Source of the DNA: Bacillus sp. J37
GTDB taxonomy: Bacteria > Bacillota > Bacilli > Bacillales > Bacillaceae
NCBI RefSeq assembly: GCF_000518865.1
Contig: NZ_JAEK01000033.1
Location: forward strand, 1-54,136
Length of the DNA stretch: 54,136 nt
Direction: 5' to 3'
The notes under the pieces were generated by a model. The model was not told the DNA's origin, ran no database searches, and saw only the letters and a list, made by a program, of their open reading frames with translations. Below, piece by piece: positions 3,812 to 36,785 of this stretch (position 1 is the stretch's first letter; each line of letters opens with the position of its first letter). The translations under genes were made by a program, and so were the position numbers.

Positions 3812-5536
3812 ATGAACATTCATAAAAAAGATGTTATCCGATTATTAGAAAAGATCGCGGTTTTAATGGAATTAAAAGGGGAAAATCCTTTTAAAATATC
3901 TGCGTTTCGAAAAGCTGCTAACGCTTTAGAAGTGGATGATAGAAGCTTAGCATTAATTGATGATTTTACGAAGATTCCCGGTATAGGAAAAGGGACTTCA
4001 GCCGTTATTAAAGAATTTGTGGAAACGGAAAAATCAGAGGTTCTTGAGCAATTACAAGCGGAAGTGCCTGCAGGTTTACTTCCTTTATTAAAACTGCCAG
4101 GTTTAGGTGGTAAAAAGATTGCAAAGCTATATAAGGAATTACACATCGATAGTGTTGAAGCGCTTAAATTAGCCTGTGAAGAAAATAAGATACAAAGTTT
4201 AGCGGGATTTGGAAAAAAATCAGAAGAAAAGATTTTAGCTGCGATTGAAGAAATCGGAAGTCGTCCAGAACGCTTACCAATTTCGTTTATGCTTCCAATT
4301 GCACAGGAAATTGAGTCATATCTTGAAAAATGTAAAGATATTGAAAGCTACTCACGTGCTGGCAGTCTGAGACGTATGCGTGAAACTATTAAAGATTTAG
4401 ATTTTATTATATCGACAAATGAACCCAAACATGTAAGGGAACAACTGTTGAACATTCCTAATATTTCGGATGTTATCGCAAGCGGTGATACAAAGGTATC
4501 TGTCCAGCTTACATATGACTATGAGGTAAGTGTAGATTTTAGACTAGTTAAACCAGCGGAATTTGCCACAACTCTGCATCATTTCACAGGATCGAAGGAC
4601 CATAATGTCAGAATGAGACAGCTTGCAAAAGACCGTGGAGAAAAGATTAGTGAATATGGCGTAGAAAATGTTGAGACAAACGAAGTGAAAACATTTGAAA
4701 CAGAAGAGGATTTTTATCAGTATTTTAATCTTCCTCATTTCTCTCCTGAAATTCGAGAAGATGGAACAGAGGTTGATTCTTTCCATCATGACATCAAGCT
4801 TGTACACTTGGAGGATATAAAAGGAGATCTTCATATGCACTCTACCTGGAGTGATGGAGCTTTTACTATTCGTGAAATGGTTGAAGCGTGTCGCAATAAA
4901 GGGTATCGTTATATCGCCATTACGGACCATTCCCAATATTTAAAGGTAGCAAATGGATTAACACCTGAGAGACTAAGGGCTCAACGGCAGGAAATAGATG
5001 CCTTAAACGAAGAATATGATGATATTACAATTCTTGCCGGAGTTGAGATGGATATTTTGCCTGATGCTACATTAGATTATGATGACGAATTGCTAGCCGA
5101 GATGGATCTTGTCATTGCCTCCATTCATTCAAGTTTTTCTCAATCACAGGAAGTGATCATGGAACGTCTAAAAACAGCGTTACACAATCATCATGTTGAC
5201 ATCATTGCACATCCAACTGGTCGAATCATCGGCAAGCGAAAAGGTTATGATGTAAACATAGATTTACTTATTCAACTTGCAAAGGAAACAGACACAGTAT
5301 TAGAGTTAAATGCGAACCCTCAGCGTTTAGACTTGAGTGCAGAACATATTCGCAAGGCCCAAGAAGCGGGTGTGAAAGTTGTCATTAATACAGATGCACA
5401 TAATATAGACATGTTAGACGATATGGATATTGGTATTTCTACAGCCAAAAAAGGCTGGATTGAACGCGATACAGTTATTAATACATGGGACATTGACCAG
5501 CTAAAAGCATTTTTAAACAGACATCATAAGGAATAG
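3812..5536 (+). CDS. polX: DNA polymerase X with PHP domain
   Basis: This is a family X DNA polymerase for gap-filling in base excision repair, carrying a C-terminal PHP phosphoesterase (3'-5' exonuclease and AP endonuclease in the B. subtilis enzyme). The 574 residues show helix-hairpin-helix motifs near the N-terminus (IPGIGKGTSAVIKEF, LPGLGGKKIAKLY), catalytic Asp motifs in KDLDFIIST and SVDFRLV, and the PHP domain beginning at GDLHMHSTWSDGAF (about residue 335) with later ITDHS, HPTGR and NTDAHN metal-ligand motifs. Length matches B. subtilis YshC. The SD AAAGAGGTGG supports ATG 3812. Confidence 0.95.
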   Translation: MNIHKKDVIRLLEKIAVLMELKGENPFKISAFRKAANALEVDDRSLALIDDFTKIPGIGKGTSAVIKEFVETEKSEVLEQLQAEVPAGLLPLLKLPGLGGKKIAKLYKELHIDSVEALKLACEENKIQSLAGFGKKSEEKILAAIEEIGSRPERLPISFMLPIAQEIESYLEKCKDIESYSRAGSLRRMRETIKDLDFIISTNEPKHVREQLLNIPNISDVIASGDTKVSVQLTYDYEVSVDFRLVKPAEFATTLHHFTGSKDHNVRMRQLAKDRGEKISEYGVENVETNEVKTFETEEDFYQYFNLPHFSPEIREDGTEVDSFHHDIKLVHLEDIKGDLHMHSTWSDGAFTIREMVEACRNKGYRYIAITDHSQYLKVANGLTPERLRAQRQEIDALNEEYDDITILAGVEMDILPDATLDYDDELLAEMDLVIASIHSSFSQSQEVIMERLKTALHNHHVDIIAHPTGRIIGKRKGYDVNIDLLIQLAKETDTVLELNANPQRLDLSAEHIRKAQEAGVKVVINTDAHNIDMLDDMDIGISTAKKGWIERDTVINTWDIDQLKAFLNRHHKE

Positions 5537-16315: not shown

Positions 16316-16556
16316 AATGATGGTAGAGGTGCGACCATTAAGAGTAGCCGGTTTGAGGAAAAATGGATTCCGATGACAATTGGTGAAAGGAATGTTCGCC
16401 GAAGTGATAATTGCACCATTTGCTTTTATCGCTGGTTTTACATTTAAGAAATGTAAAATTGTCAAGAAACGATATGTTCTTGGAGAGCTATCTCATTGTA
16501 TAAACGAAATTTTTCGTTTAATTAGCAATGGGATGTTTTTGTCTCATTGCTTTTTT
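16316..16556 (+). promoter_or_regulatory. Lysine riboswitch (L-box) controlling lysC
   Basis: The L-box signature appears in order: GAGGTGCGAC (16326-16335), AGAGTAGCC, GAAAGGAATGTTCGCCGAAG, CTTTTATCGCTGG and TCTTGGAGAGCTATCTC. P1 pairs AATGA..GGTAG (from 16316) with CTATCTCATT. The same 3' strand, ATCTCATTG (16490-16498), can instead pair with CAATGGGAT (16526-16534) around a 9-bp hairpin (16501-16519) to form the antiterminator. The competing terminator is GCAATGGGA (16525-16533) with TCTCATTGC (16542-16550) and six T. Lysine binding stabilises P1 and so termination, repressing lysC. Confidence 0.93.
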
Positions 16557-28511: not shown

Positions 28512-28640
28512 AAGTTCAAATAAAAGTTACACGAACATTTTAAAAAGTATGGAAAATTCAAAATTCCTTTTATAATTTCCTTTCCAAATATAATGTTCAG
28601 TGGTTTAATTTTTGAACTTTTTAAAGAAAGGCGTGCTCTT

Positions 28641-29546
28641 ATGGGTGACCAGTGGATCTTTCTTAATGACAATTTTGTAAAGAAAGAAGATGCGAAAATT
28701 TCAGTTTATGATCACGGGTTTTTATACGGTGATGGAGTATTTGAAGGTATTAGAGTTTACAGTGGAAATATCTTCAGAATGAAAGAGCATATGGATCGGC
28801 TTTATCAATCGGCAAAATCGATTATGCTAACCATACCATACTCACAAGACGAACTAACTGGATTAGTCGTTGAAACTGTCAAAAAGAACGGTTTGAGCGA
28901 TGCGTACATTCGATTAGTTGTCTCAAGAGGAACTGGTGACCTAGGATTAGATCCTTATAATTGTAAACGGGCAAATACTGTTATTATTGTCGAACCACTA
29001 TCAATATTCCCTAAGCATTTGTATGAAACTGGTATTGAAATTGTGACGGTGGCAACGAGAAGAAATAGACCTGATGTATTAAGTCCAAAAGTAAAATCTC
29101 TAAATTATTTAAACAATGTATTGGTAAAAATCGAAGCACATTTGGCCAACGTGAGTGAAGCATTAATGTTAAACGACCAGGGCTATGTTGCAGAAGGTTC
29201 TGCCGACAATGTCTTTATCTTAAAAAATGGGAAGTTATTAACTCCCCCTGGATATATAGGTGCTCTAGAAGGAATTACACGAAATGCCATTATTGATATA
29301 GCAGCTGAAATGGGCTATGAAGTGCGCGAAGAGCCATTTACCCGTCACGATGTGTATACAGCTGACGAGGTTTTCCTAACTGGCACAGCGGCAGAAGTTA
29401 TTGCTGTTGTTAAAGTGGATGGACGTACGATTGGTCAAGGTGTTCCTGGAGAGGAAACGAAAAAGCTTCTAGTAGCTTTTCGTAAGTTAGTTGTTGAAGA
29501 AGGTATCAAGGTTGAAAACATACCTGAAAATCTTCATGTAATCTAA
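28641..29546 (+). CDS. ilvE: Branched-chain amino acid aminotransferase
   Basis: IlvE is a PLP fold-type IV transaminase that makes valine, leucine and isoleucine from their 2-oxo acids. The 301 residues show VYDHGFLYGDGVFEGIRVY, RLVVSRGTGDLGLDP, the PLP-lysine region SPKVKSLNYLNNVLVKIEA, EGSADNVFILKNGKLLTPP and the GITRNAIIDIA block. ATG 28641 is nine bases after GAAAGG; the extension to 28593 has no SD. It lies just upstream of the T-box controlled ilvB operon; in B. subtilis the equivalent genes are elsewhere. Confidence 0.9.
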   Translation: MGDQWIFLNDNFVKKEDAKISVYDHGFLYGDGVFEGIRVYSGNIFRMKEHMDRLYQSAKSIMLTIPYSQDELTGLVVETVKKNGLSDAYIRLVVSRGTGDLGLDPYNCKRANTVIIVEPLSIFPKHLYETGIEIVTVATRRNRPDVLSPKVKSLNYLNNVLVKIEAHLANVSEALMLNDQGYVAEGSADNVFILKNGKLLTPPGYIGALEGITRNAIIDIAAEMGYEVREEPFTRHDVYTADEVFLTGTAAEVIAVVKVDGRTIGQGVPGEETKKLLVAFRKLVVEEGIKVENIPENLHVI

Positions 29547-29561
29547 TGATTTGCATATAGT
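29533..29561 (+). promoter_or_regulatory. Putative promoter of the ilvB T-box transcript
   Basis: TTCATG (29533-29538), a 17-base spacer and TATAGT (29556-29561) overlap the end of ilvE and would start RNA right at the T-box. Confidence 0.5.
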
Positions 29562-29564
29562 AAA

Positions 29565-29856
29565 ACGGTGAAGAGGAAAAGTAGTTTTTGGAAAAGTATC
29601 TACAGAGAACCGGGGTAGCTGGAAGCCGGTGATATTCCCAAAGATGAACTCGCCTCTGAGTGTTAACCTGAAATATAGTAGGGTTAGCCGAGTCCCATTC
29701 TTCGGTACTCGTTATCAAAGTGAACAGATGATCTGTTCGTAAGGTGGTCAACAATGACCATGAAGAAGGGTGGTACCGCGAAAAAGTTTATTAACCTTTT
29801 CGCCCCTTTGGCACACAATTTATGTGGAGTCTTATGAGGGGTGGGAAGGTTTTTTA
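29565..29856 (+). promoter_or_regulatory. T-box riboswitch, leucine specifier
   Basis: The invariant T-box AAGGGTGGTACCGCG is at 29766-29780. The stem I specifier loop presents CTC (29649-29651, in GAACTCGCC), a leucine codon. The terminator is AACCTTTTCGCCCCT (29793-29807) with AGGGGTGGGAAGGTT (29837-29851) through several G-U pairs, followed by six T. Uncharged tRNA-Leu would hold the antiterminator and allow ilvBHC-leuBCD transcription. Confidence 0.93.
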
Positions 29857-29925
29857 TATGCTGAATTAATTGAATTTTTGTAAAAAATATAAAGGGCTAA
29901 TATGCCAGGAAAGGGAGGAAAGAAA

Positions 29926-31647
29926 ATGAGTACAAATGTACAGTTGAACAGCTCAACTGCCAAATGTACAAACACAATGTCAGGGTCACAAATGCTTGTG
30001 GAAGCTTTAAAGCAGGAAAAGGTTGAAGTTATTTTTGGTTATCCCGGTGGTGCTGTATTACCAATCTATGATAGCTTATATGATTCAGGTTTATTCCATG
30101 TTTTAACTCGCCATGAGCAAGGAGGAATTCATGCTGCTGAAGGCTATGCACGAGTTTCGGGAAGACCGGGAGTAGTGATTGCTACATCTGGACCAGGTGC
30201 TACAAATCTTGTCACCGGATTAGCAGATGCGATGATAGATTCACTACCATTAGTTGTTTTTACAGGGCAGGTTGCATCTTCTGTGATTGGATCTGATGCT
30301 TTCCAGGAAGCGGATATCTTAGGAATTACTACTCCAATTACAAAACATAATTACCAGGTTCGTGAAGTGAATGATCTACCAAGAATTGTTAAAGAGGCAT
30401 TTCATATTGCCACTACGGGAAGACCAGGCCCGGTATTAATCGATATCCCTAAAGATATCGCTACAATTGAAGGGGATTTCTCATATGATATGGAAGTAAA
30501 TCTTCCAGGATATCAACCTACTAATGAGCCGAATTACCTTCAAATCCGTAAATTGGTCGAGGCTGTAAGTCGAGCGAAAAAACCTGTTATTTTGGCTGGT
30601 GCAGGTGTATTACATGCAAACGGCCATGAGGAATTAAGACAATATGCAGAACAACAGCAAATTCCTATCGCAAATACTTTACTTGGTTTAGGTGGATTCC
30701 CATCAAATCATCCATTGTTTTTAGGGATGGCGGGAATGCATGGAACGTACACAGCAAACATGGCCATTTATGACTGTGATTTATTGATCAGTGTTGGTGC
30801 CAGATTTGATGATCGTGTAACAGGAAATCTTCAACATTTTGCGAAAAAGGCAATCATTGCTCATATCGATATTGACCCGGCTGAAATCGGTAAGAATGTC
30901 CCAACTCAAATTCCAATTGTGGGAGATGCAAAATTAGTTCTTCAACAATTATTAAAACAAGATGGTAAACAAGGTGATAACAAAGAGTGGAATGAACAGT
31001 TGGCTTCAAATAAGAAAGAATATCCACTTGTTTATCGAGAAAGTGATTCAGAGTTAAAGCCGCAGAACATTTTAGAGCTTATCCACAAATGGACGAATGG
31101 CGAAGCAATCGTAACGACGGATGTTGGTCAGCATCAAATGTGGGCAGCACAATATTACAACTTTAATAATCCGAATAGATGGGTAACATCAGGTGGCCTT
31201 GGAACAATGGGCTTCGGTTTACCATCAGCGATTGGAGCTCAACTTGCAGACCGTAACTCCACTGTAATTGCTGTTATTGGTGACGGTGGATTCCAAATGA
31301 CTCTTCAGGAGTTATCAGTTATACATGAATTAAACTTACCAATAAAAGTTGTAATATTAAATAATGGAGCTCTTGGAATGGTTAGACAATGGCAAGAGCT
31401 ATTCTATGAAGAAAGATATTCTCATTCTAAGTTTGTTTCACAACCTGATTTCGTAAAATTATCAGAAGCTTATGGCATGACTGGGGTTCGAATTGTAAAA
31501 GAAGATGGTTGGGAAGAAAAATTAAAAGCTGCAATTTTATCAGACGAACCAGTATTACTTGATATTCACGTATGCAAGGATGAGAACGTGTATCCAATGG
31601 TTGCTACAGGCAAAGGGCTACATGAAATGGTAGGTGTTAAACTATGA
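29926..31647 (+). CDS. ilvB: Acetolactate synthase, large subunit
   Basis: IlvB is the thiamine-diphosphate enzyme that makes acetolactate and acetohydroxybutyrate, the common first step of branched-chain synthesis. The 573 residues carry the catalytic-Glu region [28 protein letters not shown], and the ThDP motif [32 protein letters not shown] 29926 follows GGGAGGAAAG; eight upstream in-frame codons are excluded because they include the SD. Its stop overlaps ilvH. Controlled by the T-box. Confidence 0.96.
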
Positions 31648-32159
31648 AAAGGATCCTCTCATTAACGGTTTTGAACCAAACCGGGGTTTTAAATAGAATT
31701 ACAGGGTTGTTTACAAAAAGACATTACAATATTGAAAGCATTACAGTAGGTCATGCTGAAACAGAAGGTGTTTCAAGAATGACAGTTGTTGTAAATGTCC
31801 AAGAGGAAAAAGAAGTTGAACAAATCACGAAGCAATTAAATAAACAAATAGATGTTCTTAAAGTAACAGATATTACTTCTCACTCCATTGTATCCAGAGA
31901 ATTGGCATTAATAAAAGTAATGTCAACACCAGCAACAAGAATGGAGATTCAAGGACTTATTCAGCCATTTAGAGCAACAGTTATTGATGTAAGTCGAGAA
32001 AGTGTTGTTGTGCAGGTTACTGGTGAGCCTGAGAAAATTGAAGTTCTTATCGATTTATTAAAACCATATGGCATTAAAGAAATTGCCCGTACCGGAACTA
32101 CTGCATTTACGCGTGGTACGCAAAGAGCATCAAAAGAAGTTCCTATTTCAATTGTTTAA
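31644..32159 (+). CDS. ilvH: Acetolactate synthase, small regulatory subunit
   Basis: IlvH activates IlvB and mediates valine feedback. The 171 residues have an N-terminal ACT domain ([32 protein letters not shown]) and a C-terminal ACT-like half ([60 protein letters not shown]). It starts at ATG 31644 in an ATGA overlap with ilvB, a sign of coupled translation. Confidence 0.95.
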
Positions 32160-32245: not shown

Positions 32246-33286
<1,041 letters not shown>

Positions 33287-33498
33287 TCTGTTTGATATAA
33301 ATCTCTGTGATTGTGAGCAATCTCCAGGTTCGTATTTTATTTTGTAAAAAAGCTGGAGATTGCTAAATTATTAGAAAAACTCAGATTAAATCATCATGAA
33401 GCAGGTGTTCCTGTTACGTTAAAGTTGATGTAGCAGCAGTGCAACATGTACTAAAATTTAAAAACAGGTCTACAAAATTAAGAAACTTAGAGTGAAGG
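33287..33498 (+). pseudogene. leuA: Decayed remnant of leuA (2-isopropylmalate synthase)
   Basis: The gap between ilvC and leuB still reads as the LeuA N-terminus in three frames. 33291-33329 gives FDINLCDCEQSPG, matching FDTTLRDGEQSPG. 33350-33412 gives KLEIAKLLEKLRLNHHEAGVP, matching KIEIAKQLEKLGVDIIEAGFP. 33427 onward gives DVAAVQHV..K.KNRS, matching GDFEAVQ..I.KNCS. The joins are short by one base each (20 instead of 21; 14 instead of 15). The start codon and SD are gone, and everything after about codon 85 (over 400 codons) is deleted up to the leuB SD. Reference residues are from my memory of Bacillus LeuA. Confidence 0.85.
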
Positions 33499-33508
33499 GG
33501 GATAGAAC

Positions 33509-34621
33509 ATGAAAAAAACAATCGCATTGCTACCGGGTGATGGAATTGGTAAAGAAGTAGTTGATGTAACTGTCGAAATATTAAAAGCTGTCGCTGAACA
33601 TTTCAATCATCAATTTCAATTTAACTATGGTTTGATAGGTGGTACGGCCATTGATCAAAAAGGCAATCCACTGCCACAAGAAACAATTGAAATTTGTAAA
33701 AAATCTGATGCCATCATTCTAGGAGCTGTTGGAGGTCCGAAATGGGATCAAAATCCTGTTGAACTTCGACCGGAACGTGGTCTACTAGCATTGCGTAAGG
33801 AATTAGACTTATTTGCTAACTTACGCCCGATTACAACATTTGATAGTTTGTTAGATTCTTCCCCTTTGAAGAGGGAGTATGTTAATGGAGTGGATTTTGT
33901 TATCGTACGAGAACTAACAGGCGGGTTATATTTCGGTAAGCCAAGTGAGCGTGTCGTTAAAGATGGTGAAGATGCAGTTGTCGATACCTTGTTCTATAAG
34001 AGAAAGGAAATCGAGAGAATTCTTGTTACAGCATTTGAGATCGCCGGGAAACGTCGTAAGCATGTGACATCTGTTGATAAAGCAAATGTTCTGGAGTCAA
34101 GTAGAGTATGGCGTGAAGTAGCAGAAGAAGTAGCTGCAAGATACCCTGAAGTAACGTTAGAGCATATGTTAGTTGATAATGCGGCAATGCAGCTTATCCG
34201 CTCGCCTCGACAATTTGATGTTATTGTGACGGAAAATATGTTTGGGGATATTTTAAGTGATGAAGCATCTATGATTACAGGTTCCCTAGGAATGCTATCA
34301 TCTGCCAGTCTATCTTCAACAGGTTTGCATTTATATGAACCAATTCACGGTTCAGCGCCAGATATAGCTGGTAAAGATCAAGCAAACCCAATTGCTACAA
34401 TTCTTTCAGCAGCCATGATGCTTCGCCAATCTTTTGGAATGGAAGAAGAAGCAAAGGCGATTGAAAAAGCTGTTGATAACGTCTTAAACTCAGGCGCACG
34501 TACAGCTGATCTTGCAAATGGCGAAAAAGCTATTTCAACTACGCAAATGGCTGAAGAAATAAAAAATGCAATATCCGATGACCATGCAATTATTAATATT
34601 ATGGAGGCTTACTCTAAGTAA
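33509..34621 (+). CDS. leuB: 3-isopropylmalate dehydrogenase
   Basis: LeuB oxidises and decarboxylates 3-isopropylmalate in leucine synthesis. The 370 residues show IALLPGDGIGKEVV, AIILGAVGGPKWD, FVIVRELTGGLYFGKPSER, SVDKANVLESSRVWREV, LVDNAAMQLI and the signature NMFGDILSDEASMITGSLGMLSSASL. SD GAAGGGGGAT before ATG 33509. The gene looks fully intact although its upstream partner leuA is gone. Confidence 0.95.
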   Translation: MKKTIALLPGDGIGKEVVDVTVEILKAVAEHFNHQFQFNYGLIGGTAIDQKGNPLPQETIEICKKSDAIILGAVGGPKWDQNPVELRPERGLLALRKELDLFANLRPITTFDSLLDSSPLKREYVNGVDFVIVRELTGGLYFGKPSERVVKDGEDAVVDTLFYKRKEIERILVTAFEIAGKRRKHVTSVDKANVLESSRVWREVAEEVAARYPEVTLEHMLVDNAAMQLIRSPRQFDVIVTENMFGDILSDEASMITGSLGMLSSASLSSTGLHLYEPIHGSAPDIAGKDQANPIATILSAAMMLRQSFGMEEEAKAIEKAVDNVLNSGARTADLANGEKAISTTQMAEEIKNAISDDHAIINIMEAYSK

Positions 34622-34674
34622 GTTTACCGACTATAAAATCCGGGTGCAGGTATTCAGCATTTTGCATCAGGGCC

Positions 34675-34715
34675 TGAGGGGTATGACAATTATGATTGTC
34701 AGCCCCTCATTTTCC
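34675..34715 (+). terminator. Terminator-like hairpin between leuB and leuC
   Basis: TGAGGGG (34675-34681) pairs with CCCCTCA (34703-34709), enclosing a GACAAT/ATTGTC inner stem, followed by TTTT. It lies inside an operon, so it may reduce rather than stop readthrough into leuC. Confidence 0.6.
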
Positions 34716-34739
34716 ATCTATTAAAGGAGGTTTATGACC

Positions 34740-36167
34740 ATGAAGCCAAGAACGATCATAGAAAAGATCTATGACGAACATATCGTCCAACAAGAACAGG
34801 GAAAGCCGGATCTTTTATATATCGACCTACACTTAATTCATGAAGTAACATCACCACAGGCTTTTGAAGGGTTACGAGAGAAAAATCGTAAAGTAAGAAG
34901 ACCCGACCGAACATTTGCAACAATGGATCACAATGTCCCAACTGTCAATCGTTTTGTAATCAAAGATGAGGTTGCGAAAAACCAAATTAGTGCTTTGGAA
35001 AGAAACTGTCAGGAATTCGGTATCCGGTTAGCTGACCTGCAAAGTGAAGATCAAGGAATTGTTCACGTAATTGGACCGGAACTAGGGCTAACACTACCTG
35101 GAAAAACAATTGTTTGTGGAGACAGCCACACTTCAACTCATGGTGCATTTGGTGCGATTGCTTTTGGAATTGGAACTAGTGAGGTTGAACATGTACTAGC
35201 AACTCAAACATTATGGAGACAGCGTCCTAAAACGTTAAATATTCATGTACCAGGTAAGCTTCAAAAGGGAGTAACAGCAAAGGATGTTATTCTTGCTGTT
35301 ATAGGTAAATATGGTGTTCGCTTTGGTACTGGCTATATTATTGAATATACAGGTGAAGTCATTGAAAGTCTTTCAATGGATGAAAGAATGACTATCTGTA
35401 ACATGTCAATTGAGGCAGGAGCCAGAGCCGGTCTTATTGCACCTGATGAAACAACTTTCTCTTACATTAAAGGTAGAAAGTATGCTCCTAAAGGTGAAGA
35501 GTTTGATCGTGCAGTAGAATACTGGAAAACGTTAAGAACAGATGAAGGTGCCGAGTATGATCAAGTTATAACGCTAAAGGGTGAAGAAATTGCACCAATG
35601 GTTACTTGGGGAACAAATCCAGGCATGTCAGTAGGTGTTCATGAAAAAACCCCTGATTTAAATGATTTCCAAAATGCTGAAGAACTTGATGAAGCAAATC
35701 GTGCTTTTAGCTATATGGGATTACAACCAAATACTAAGATTGAAGAGATTACAATTGAGCACGTCTTTATTGGATCCTGTACAAACTCTCGCTTAACAGA
35801 CCTAAGACAGGCTGCAGAAATTATACAAAGCTTTAAAGGGCAAAAGGTACCGGAAAATGTAAGAGCTATTGTTGTACCGGGTTCTCAAAAAGTAAAAAGA
35901 GTAGCAGAAGAAGAAGGTCTGGATGTAATCTTTAAAGAAGCAGGCTTTGAATGGCGAGAATCAGGGTGCAGTATGTGTCTTAGTATGAATAATGACGTTG
36001 TTCCAGAAGGTGAACGTTGTGCTTCAACTTCAAATCGTAACTTTGAAGGAAGACAAGGTAAAGGAGCTAGGACACATCTAGTAAGCCCTGCAATGGCAGC
36101 AGCAGCAGCTTTACATGGACGATTTGTGGATGTCCGTCATATTCAAAAAAATGCGATGAGCATCTAA
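34740..36167 (+). CDS. leuC: 3-isopropylmalate dehydratase, large subunit
   Basis: LeuC is the iron-sulfur half of isopropylmalate isomerase. The 475 residues include [36 protein letters not shown], and the cluster cysteines in [14 protein letters not shown] and [35 protein letters not shown] choose ATG 34740, nine bases after AAAGGAGG; ATG 34734 is only three bases from it. It pairs with leuD immediately downstream. Confidence 0.95.
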
Positions 36168-36191: not shown

Positions 36192-36785
36192 ATGCAACCT
36201 TTTACTACACATACAGGTAAAGTAGCTGTATTAAATAGAACAAATGTAGATACAGATCAAATCATTCCAAAACAATTCTTAAAAAGAATAGAAAAAACAG
36301 GTTATGGTCGTTTTGCATTTTTTGATTGGAGATATTTAGACGATGGATCTGAAAACCCTGAGTTTGAACTAAACCAGGAAAAAAGCAAAGGAGCCACAAT
36401 CTTACTTGCAGGTGAAAACTTTGGCTGCGGATCATCGCGTGAACACGCTCCATGGGCCCTGTCTGATTATGGCTTTCAAGTCATTCTTGCGCCGTCTTAT
36501 GCAGATATCTTTCATCAGAACTGTCTTAAAAACGGTTTATTGCCTATAACATTAGAACAATCAGATTTAGATGTGATACGTGAGAAGACCAATGATGACA
36601 ACTATGTGTTAACGATTAATCTTAGAGAACAATTAATTTCTGATAATCATGGGTTGTCAAAATCATTTGAGGTAGACGCTTATTGGAAAGATATGCTTCT
36701 ATATGGAAAAGATGAAATCGATCTAACTTTAAATTATGATGAAGAAATTAAACAGTTTGAAGAAAGAAGAGCATCATTTTTATAA
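36192..36785 (+). CDS. leuD: 3-isopropylmalate dehydratase, small subunit
   Basis: LeuD is the swivel-domain partner of LeuC. The 197 residues show NRTNVDTDQIIPKQFLKRI, LLAGENFGCGSSREHAPWALSDYGFQVILAPSYADIFHQNCLKNGLLPI and the C-terminal DAYWKDMLLYGKDEIDLTL. SD TTAGGAGGG before ATG 36192. It ends the ilv-leu operon; the terminator stem overlaps its last codons. Confidence 0.95.
   Translation: MQPFTTHTGKVAVLNRTNVDTDQIIPKQFLKRIEKTGYGRFAFFDWRYLDDGSENPEFELNQEKSKGATILLAGENFGCGSSREHAPWALSDYGFQVILAPSYADIFHQNCLKNGLLPITLEQSDLDVIREKTNDDNYVLTINLREQLISDNHGLSKSFEVDAYWKDMLLYGKDEIDLTLNYDEEIKQFEERRASFL

Follow-up and report, generated by a model that had tools for sequence, protein, structure and literature searches.

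A relic of leuA in the ilv-leu operon of a Metabacillus strain and its very probable displacement by an unlinked, T-box-controlled class II isopropylmalate synthase

Introduction

The closest described counterpart of the operon investigated here is the ilv-leu operon of Bacillus subtilis, in which the genes are ordered ilvBHC-leuABC(D) behind a T-box leader, the CUC triplet of that leader being named in the title of a reference listed in PMC2494555. The operon of Bacillus sp. J37 shares this gene order except for leuA, and it likewise has a T-box leader with a CUC specifier, but it differs in that leuA is a relic and that the corresponding enzyme is encoded elsewhere. The latter enzyme resembles the class II LeuA of Mycobacterium tuberculosis (1sr9; NF002991, yeast-type TIGR00970) in being of full length and in carrying a LeuA_dimer domain, whereas it differs from this reference in falling 10 bits short of the TIGR00970 cut-off and in being placed behind a T-box leader, as are all 40 of the other Bacillales class II loci searched. 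Two isopropylmalate synthases in a single bacterium are furthermore known from the LeuA1/LeuA2 pair of Leptospira, but according to the part of PMC12345160 drawn on here, LeuA2 has no regulatory domain and is an additional enzyme induced by superoxide, while the second enzyme of the present strain is of full length and appears to have replaced the first. In a literature search that covered titles and the starts of abstracts, with most subscription papers outside its scope, we found no account of such a loss of leuA or of a class II LeuA replacing the operon leuA in Bacillaceae.

Judged by its sequence the strain belongs to Metabacillus, its LeuB sharing 99% identity with the protein of M. halosaccharovorans DSM 25387 (L066, genome G005) and 98% with that of strain EaN21-8 (L057, genome G006), where loci and genomes are equated by their contig positions. 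The latter is labelled M. niabensis, and this label is likely to be wrong, as isolate Q2603 (L062, genome G008), the M. niabensis type strain, is only 85% identical to the window in LeuB; type strain 4T19 is equated with CSUR Q2603 in the portion of PMC8192859 used here.

Results and Discussion

The gap between ilvC and leuB

In the window, by which we mean the whole stretch of 54,136 nucleotides analysed (contig NZ_JAEK01000033.1), ilvC (end 33286) and leuB (start 33509) are separated by a gap of 222 bases, as compared to about 1575-1580 bases in relatives with an intact leuA. The ORF list of the window contains no frame of 60 or more amino acids that overlaps the gap, which is hence without an open frame of functional length. 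The gap is collinear with the start of leuA of EaN21-8, to which it aligns locally with a score of 91, and this is far above the values obtained from 500 mononucleotide shuffles (mean 21.6, sd 2.35, maximum 32), just as the score of 107 obtained with the best of seven references is far above the maximum of 29 in 200 shuffles. A chance similarity can thus be excluded, and since the homology to class I leuA (TIGR00973) is found at the syntenic place, we can conclude that the gap is what remains of the class I leuA which the ilv-leu operon ancestrally carried, as had been claimed in a first-pass annotation made from the sequence alone.

Several details of that annotation hold as well. Both the R-to-C and the G-to-C loss, each of a catalytic-loop residue, can be read directly by comparing CTCTGTGATTGT with CTCCGTGATGGT, the two one-base losses are present in the alignment together with a loss of three bases, and a usable start codon is indeed lacking; the intact leuA of relatives begins at a GTG overlapping the last bases of ilvC, and the GTG found at this position in the window runs into an in-frame TAA. 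The extent of the relic was however misjudged, since the 5' remnant comprises about 62 codons (about 6-67) rather than the first 85 or so, and since not everything downstream has been deleted: the last codons and the stop of leuA, GTCTACAAAATTAA, survive at 33468-33481, and the deletion is therefore internal and of about 1.3 kb. This 3' remnant is followed by a homologous spacer reaching up to the leuB ribosome-binding site, both having been matched by eye to the 3' end of intact leuA.

Table 1. Features of the ilv-leu region, in coordinates of the window
Feature	Position	Strand	Evidence
ilvE-type branched-chain aminotransferase, upstream of the T-box	28593..29546	+	NF006185 492.7 bits, cut-off 363; TIGR01122 336.9 bits, cut-off 245.55
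T-box leader of the ilv-leu operon, specifier CUC (Leu)	29559..29810	+	RF00230, 114.1 bits; AACTCGC at 29647
ilvB, acetolactate synthase large subunit	29902..31647	+	NF005824, 1093.7 bits, cut-off 976
ilvH, acetolactate synthase small subunit	31644..32159	+	NF008864, 214.8 bits, cut-off 119
ilvC, ketol-acid reductoisomerase	32261..33286	+	NF004017, 562.9 bits, cut-off 336
leuA 5' remnant, about codons 6-67 of the intact gene, frameshifted, without usable start	33287..33467	+	leuA alignment
Hairpin in the fossil, arms 33316-33330 and 33350-33364 (15 nt, 93% complementary)	33316..33364	+	
leuA 3' remnant, last codons and stop	33468..33481	+	collinear with the leuA end of L057, by eye
leuB, 3-isopropylmalate dehydrogenase, intact	33509..34621	+	TIGR00169, 541 bits, cut-off 353.2
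leuC, isopropylmalate dehydratase large subunit, intact	34734..36167	+	TIGR00170, 839.9 bits, cut-off 560.25
leuD, isopropylmalate dehydratase small subunit, intact	36192..36785	+	TIGR00171, 266.2 bits, cut-off 116.25

The remaining leu genes, which the first reading had taken to be intact, match their profiles above the cut-offs (Table 1), and they are under purifying selection, with dN/dS values against L066 and L057 of 0.056 and 0.072 for leuB, 0.060 and 0.043 for leuC and 0.080 and 0.068 for leuD. The spacer between leuB and leuC (34622-34733) contains a further inverted repeat, TGAGGGG ... CCCCTCA, seen by eye. Elsewhere in the window there are a fragment of an IS1182-family transposase (695-1459, profile positions 244-487 of 488 only) and a lysine riboswitch (16316-16498, 133.3 bits).

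A class II isopropylmalate synthase and its leader

The genome of the strain, which is 99.99% complete, encodes four PF00682 proteins, and this search revealed no operon-type (class I) leuA in the assembly. One of the four has a LeuA_dimer domain and is a class II 2-isopropylmalate synthase of 560 residues (G000:C25, locus L001:1429-3108), so that the presence of another isopropylmalate synthase elsewhere, one of three options left by the first-pass annotation, turned out to be correct. The protein scores 791.8 bits with NF002991, above the cut-off of 455, and it is filed under this model because it misses the TIGR00970 equivalog (687.1 bits, cut-off 697.4). It matches M. tuberculosis LeuA 1sr9 with 519 bits, its C-terminal regulatory domain (LeuA_dimer, PF08502) is recognised with 87.4 bits at a cut-off of 24.9, and the motifs LRDGNQ, HPHNDRG and GNGERTGN are all found, while the models for citramalate and homocitrate synthase give only 95.9 bits (cut-off 450) and 98.7 bits (cut-off 462.9). 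The protein is accordingly predicted to catalyse the formation of 2-isopropylmalate from 2-oxoisovalerate and acetyl-CoA. The gene is under purifying selection, with a dN/dS of 0.05-0.075 among four close relatives. The other three PF00682 proteins are a hydroxymethylglutaryl-CoA lyase, a 4-hydroxy-2-oxovalerate aldolase and an aldolase-like protein whose score does not reach its cut-off.

The class II gene is preceded by a T-box leader of its own (RF00230, 118.1 bits), and both this leader and that of the operon exceed the gathering score of 93. Leader alignments place the Leu specifier CUC in both of them. A T-box also lies upstream of each of another 20 class II loci, 19 of them from the genus and one from G024. 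The same holds for all 20 loci searched out of the 23 with class II that the order sample contains beyond the genome of the window itself. AACUC is found at about base 85 in 41 of 41 class II leaders, in 32 by pattern and in nine by eye, the position of the loop not being aligned. Putative tRNA-Leu-dependent antitermination would thus let uncharged tRNA-Leu induce both the operon and the class II leuA.

Leucine supply

The operon leuA is dead and has very probably been displaced by the unlinked class II synthase, which stands under T-box control with the same Leu specifier as the operon. A class II enzyme of the M. tuberculosis/yeast type would have made the class I leuA of the operon redundant, the latter would have been lost after that, and the class II enzyme, behind its Leu-CUC T-box, would feed 2-isopropylmalate to the LeuB, LeuC and LeuD made from the operon. 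We infer that redundancy was the cause of the loss, but it does not force it, since both genes are kept in 12 of the 20 class II carriers of the genus. That the class II gene preceded the loss is supported only for the group made up of the window strain, M. halosaccharovorans, G003 and EaN21-8, the class II genes of these four falling into a single clade (SH-aLRT 99 in a quick tree). Given an intact class II leuA, Leu T-boxes and selection on both this gene and leuBCD, the leucine pathway most likely lacks no step, its first enzyme being provided in trans.

The death of the operon leuA would also be expected if leucine were scavenged, the pathway being broken and leuBCD only starting to decay, which was another option of the first-pass annotation. 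This is however contradicted by the dN/dS of 0.04-0.08 for leuB, leuC and leuD against two close relatives, whereas the fossil and intact leuA disagree at about 30% of their sites, so that leuBCD have outlived leuA under selection; as the genome furthermore holds an intact class II LeuA, we regard scavenging as very improbable. LeuBCD-type enzymes can act on homologous acids, and the last option was that leuBCD are retained for the elongation of another 2-oxo acid, without leucine synthesis; the analysis revealed nothing in its favour. With a class II isopropylmalate synthase present such a role is not needed, and it is hardly to be expected, since the sole LeuA-like enzyme with a regulatory domain scores as an isopropylmalate synthase, far below the cut-offs of the citramalate and homocitrate models, and since both leaders have Leu specifiers. 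The leading explanation, displacement by a homologous enzyme from elsewhere that belongs to the same regulon by way of its T-box, is in itself an ordinary one. What lifts the case above a routine pseudogene is that the loss recurs, that the locus has recombined and that an RNA element may be involved, as described below.

Recurrence in Metabacillus and in the order

Class II LeuA is present in 20 of 21 Metabacillus genomes, the exception, G015, having an operon leuA. A short ilvC-leuB gap without leuA is found in eight of the 21 (G000, G005, G003, G013, G009, G019, G018 and G008), the operon leuA thus being missing in 8 of the 20 class II carriers, while a class I leuA scoring at least 748 bits is present in the other 13 genomes. 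G008 and G018 possess an additional class I variant at another place (624-625 bits). On the best MutS2 tree of the genus the state of the operon leuA has changed at least five times; of the 18 inner branches of this tree 5 are weak, and losses and gains are not told apart by the count. A single origin of class II LeuA in the genus is likewise unsupported, with six changes on the tree, at least three of them forced by starred branches.

The order sample comprises 299 genomes, 24 of which have class II LeuA, the window's own included. Among the 24 class II carriers of other genera (23 of the order sample and G024), class I LeuA over the cut-off is missing in nine, and in each of the nine leuB has been kept and the interval from ilvC to leuB gives no match to leuA; among them, G097 additionally shows a LeuA-like match at 259 bits. 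The non-carriers G038 and G053 have neither a leuA match at 1e-30 nor leuB at 1e-100. In 4 of 12 genomes examined, from four species of other genera, the operon leuA is replaced by a class I LeuA at another place (644-662 bits). Of the 12 short gaps aligned to leuA, 7 hold no recognisable leuA, with scores at or below the shuffle maxima (G019, which is M. malikii, G018, G008, B. dakarensis, B. methanolicus DE0196 and two Robertmurraya). In G049 and G057 (L239 and L248) the match of the operon leuA is confined to positions 1-376 and 1-384 of the 494 in the profile, and the regulatory domain is apparently missing.

A core biosynthetic operon thus repeatedly loses its first committed enzyme while the pathway is kept and an unlinked, tRNA-controlled isozyme takes over, and an annotation that seeks leuA only in the operon would miscall such strains auxotrophs. 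The genus moreover offers leuA fossils at several stages of decay beside intact copies, from which it may be learned what portions of a gene persist once it no longer codes for a protein.

Age of the decay and exchange of the locus

The fossils of the window and of M. halosaccharovorans are 95.7% identical, but they show only 64-71% identity to each of 16 intact leuA rows, in which three genomes stand twice and EaN21-8 is included. In MutS2 the three strains are near equals, with dS values of 0.10-0.15 and a branch of merely 0.0027 (support 86/70) uniting the window and M. halosaccharovorans against EaN21-8, whereas in the fossil tree the stem of the same pair measures 0.69 changes per site and its tips 0.02-0.03. 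A simple loss of leuA after the split from EaN21-8, which has an intact leuA, is ruled out by these branch lengths, and the decay would seem to be far older than that split, although this is less certain than the relic itself. There is furthermore a change of divergence within leuB, where EaN21-8 differs from the window by 10.0% and from M. halosaccharovorans by 12.3% in bases 1-310 but by only 1.8% and 2.1% thereafter, and on the left the divergent tract begins in the last bases of ilvC. With somewhat lower certainty we therefore place a putative recombination boundary about 310 bases into leuB, so that a tract with either the fossil or the intact gene would have been exchanged.

As to the direction of this exchange, we give an even chance to the fossil having been the imported allele. 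It would have come, already dead, from a lineage close to G003, reached the common ancestor that the window strain shares with M. halosaccharovorans, and overwritten a working leuA there. This agrees with the long fossil stem on a minute MutS2 branch and with the drop in divergence from EaN21-8 within leuB. In leuB 1-309 there are moreover 20 sites that part EaN21-8 from the window, M. halosaccharovorans and G003, EaN21-8 differing from the outgroup majority at 17, as against only six that part the window and M. halosaccharovorans from EaN21-8 and G003, and the LeuA of EaN21-8 groups with G020 (97/98), as the species tree asks. The site patterns and the position of EaN21-8 leuA thus lean towards an imported fossil, but the site counts are small and the topology of the 309-base tract yields a p-AU of 0.35 for the trio as one clade, and a donor near the same clade would also put EaN21-8 leuA beside G020. 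The fossils of the window and G003 share three derived bases where 1.84 are expected (p 0.27), which does not support a shared origin of the two. The opposite direction, in which leuA was lost ancestrally and an intact copy came back to EaN21-8 together with the first 310 bases of leuB, explains the same boundary, and it is in agreement with the facts that G003, the next relative, also carries a fossil and that a 6-base deletion in the ilvC tail is common to the window, M. halosaccharovorans and G003. The six sites parting the window and M. halosaccharovorans from the other two are however fewer than the leuB branch length elsewhere leads one to expect, and the distance between EaN21-8 and G003 in the tract is about the usual one (11.6% versus 10.4%), which makes regain by EaN21-8 the less probable direction, if still a serious one.

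A hairpin in the fossil

The fossil contains a hairpin (Table 1), both arms of which belong to its longest unchanged stretches, and the segment 33277-33396 folds with -29.5 kcal/mol (z -4.17). This raises the possibility, which would supplement the displacement by the class II enzyme rather than replace it, that the 5' part of the fossil has been kept as an RNA element, namely a hairpin after ilvC that ends or protects the processed ilvC mRNA and was already embedded in the leuA coding sequence. None of the 22 core arm sites has changed in the window (p 0.0026) or in G003 (p 0.011), and both folds are more stable than in simulations of neutral decay, with p 0.017 for the window (0.042 from the most stable ancestor) and p 0.0012 for G003 (0.0020). 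Intact genes point in the same direction, since in nine Metabacillus leuA the synonymous difference is 0.204 in the first 56 codons (e.g. in L057 from about 2400) versus 0.448 in the rest, a value as low as the former arising in none of 5000 permutations, and the synonymous divergence rises in a step near codon 60. A z below -2 is found just after ilvC in 10 of 21 leuA-less loci. According to the parts of PMC2784878 used here, B. subtilis processes its ilv-leu mRNA and has an antisense transcript overlapping both leuA and ilvC.

Other observations argue against such an element. The fossil of G009 has lost the hairpin (4 of 22 arm sites changed, p 0.77), that of M. bambusae is no better than neutral (p 0.31), that of M. 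halosaccharovorans is borderline (p 0.052-0.11), the 64 leuA genes taken from other Bacillaceae show no synonymous dip (p 0.49), those of the B. subtilis/licheniformis group, 12 in number, show it weakly (p 0.077), and the first 40 codons of leuB dip mildly too (0.35, 0.28). A structured start is moreover not special to leuA-less loci, since 17 of 71 loci with leuA reach a z of -2.0 or lower (L061, L062, L063, L064 and L066, second copies of short-gap loci, being left out), and a hairpin after ilvC fails as a general rule of leuA-less operons, 11 of the 21 being without a z below -2. It should also be mentioned that the arms were picked after the fossil had been seen and that the fossils of the window and G003 are possibly not independent. 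A 3' hairpin of ilvC has reportedly been proposed for B. subtilis (Mader 2004). The RNase J site published for that species (PMC3997798) lies about 99 bases before ilvC and for this very reason says nothing on the ilvC 3' end.

An RNA element in the start of leuA is consequently possible rather than probable, and it may outlive the gene. Unlikely, though worth stating, is the full combination in which the 5' end of Metabacillus leuA is an overlapping RNA hairpin that forms the 3' end of the ilvC mRNA, constrains the live codons and is selectively kept in the dead gene, the dead allele having spread between species by recombination; if true, the fossil would be a gene reduced to its RNA function. 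Strong hairpins unrelated to that of the fossil are found just after ilvC in some operons without leuA, namely in L122 (B. dakarensis, about 3830-4000), L232 and L064, with z values of -6.6, -6.4 and -6.3.
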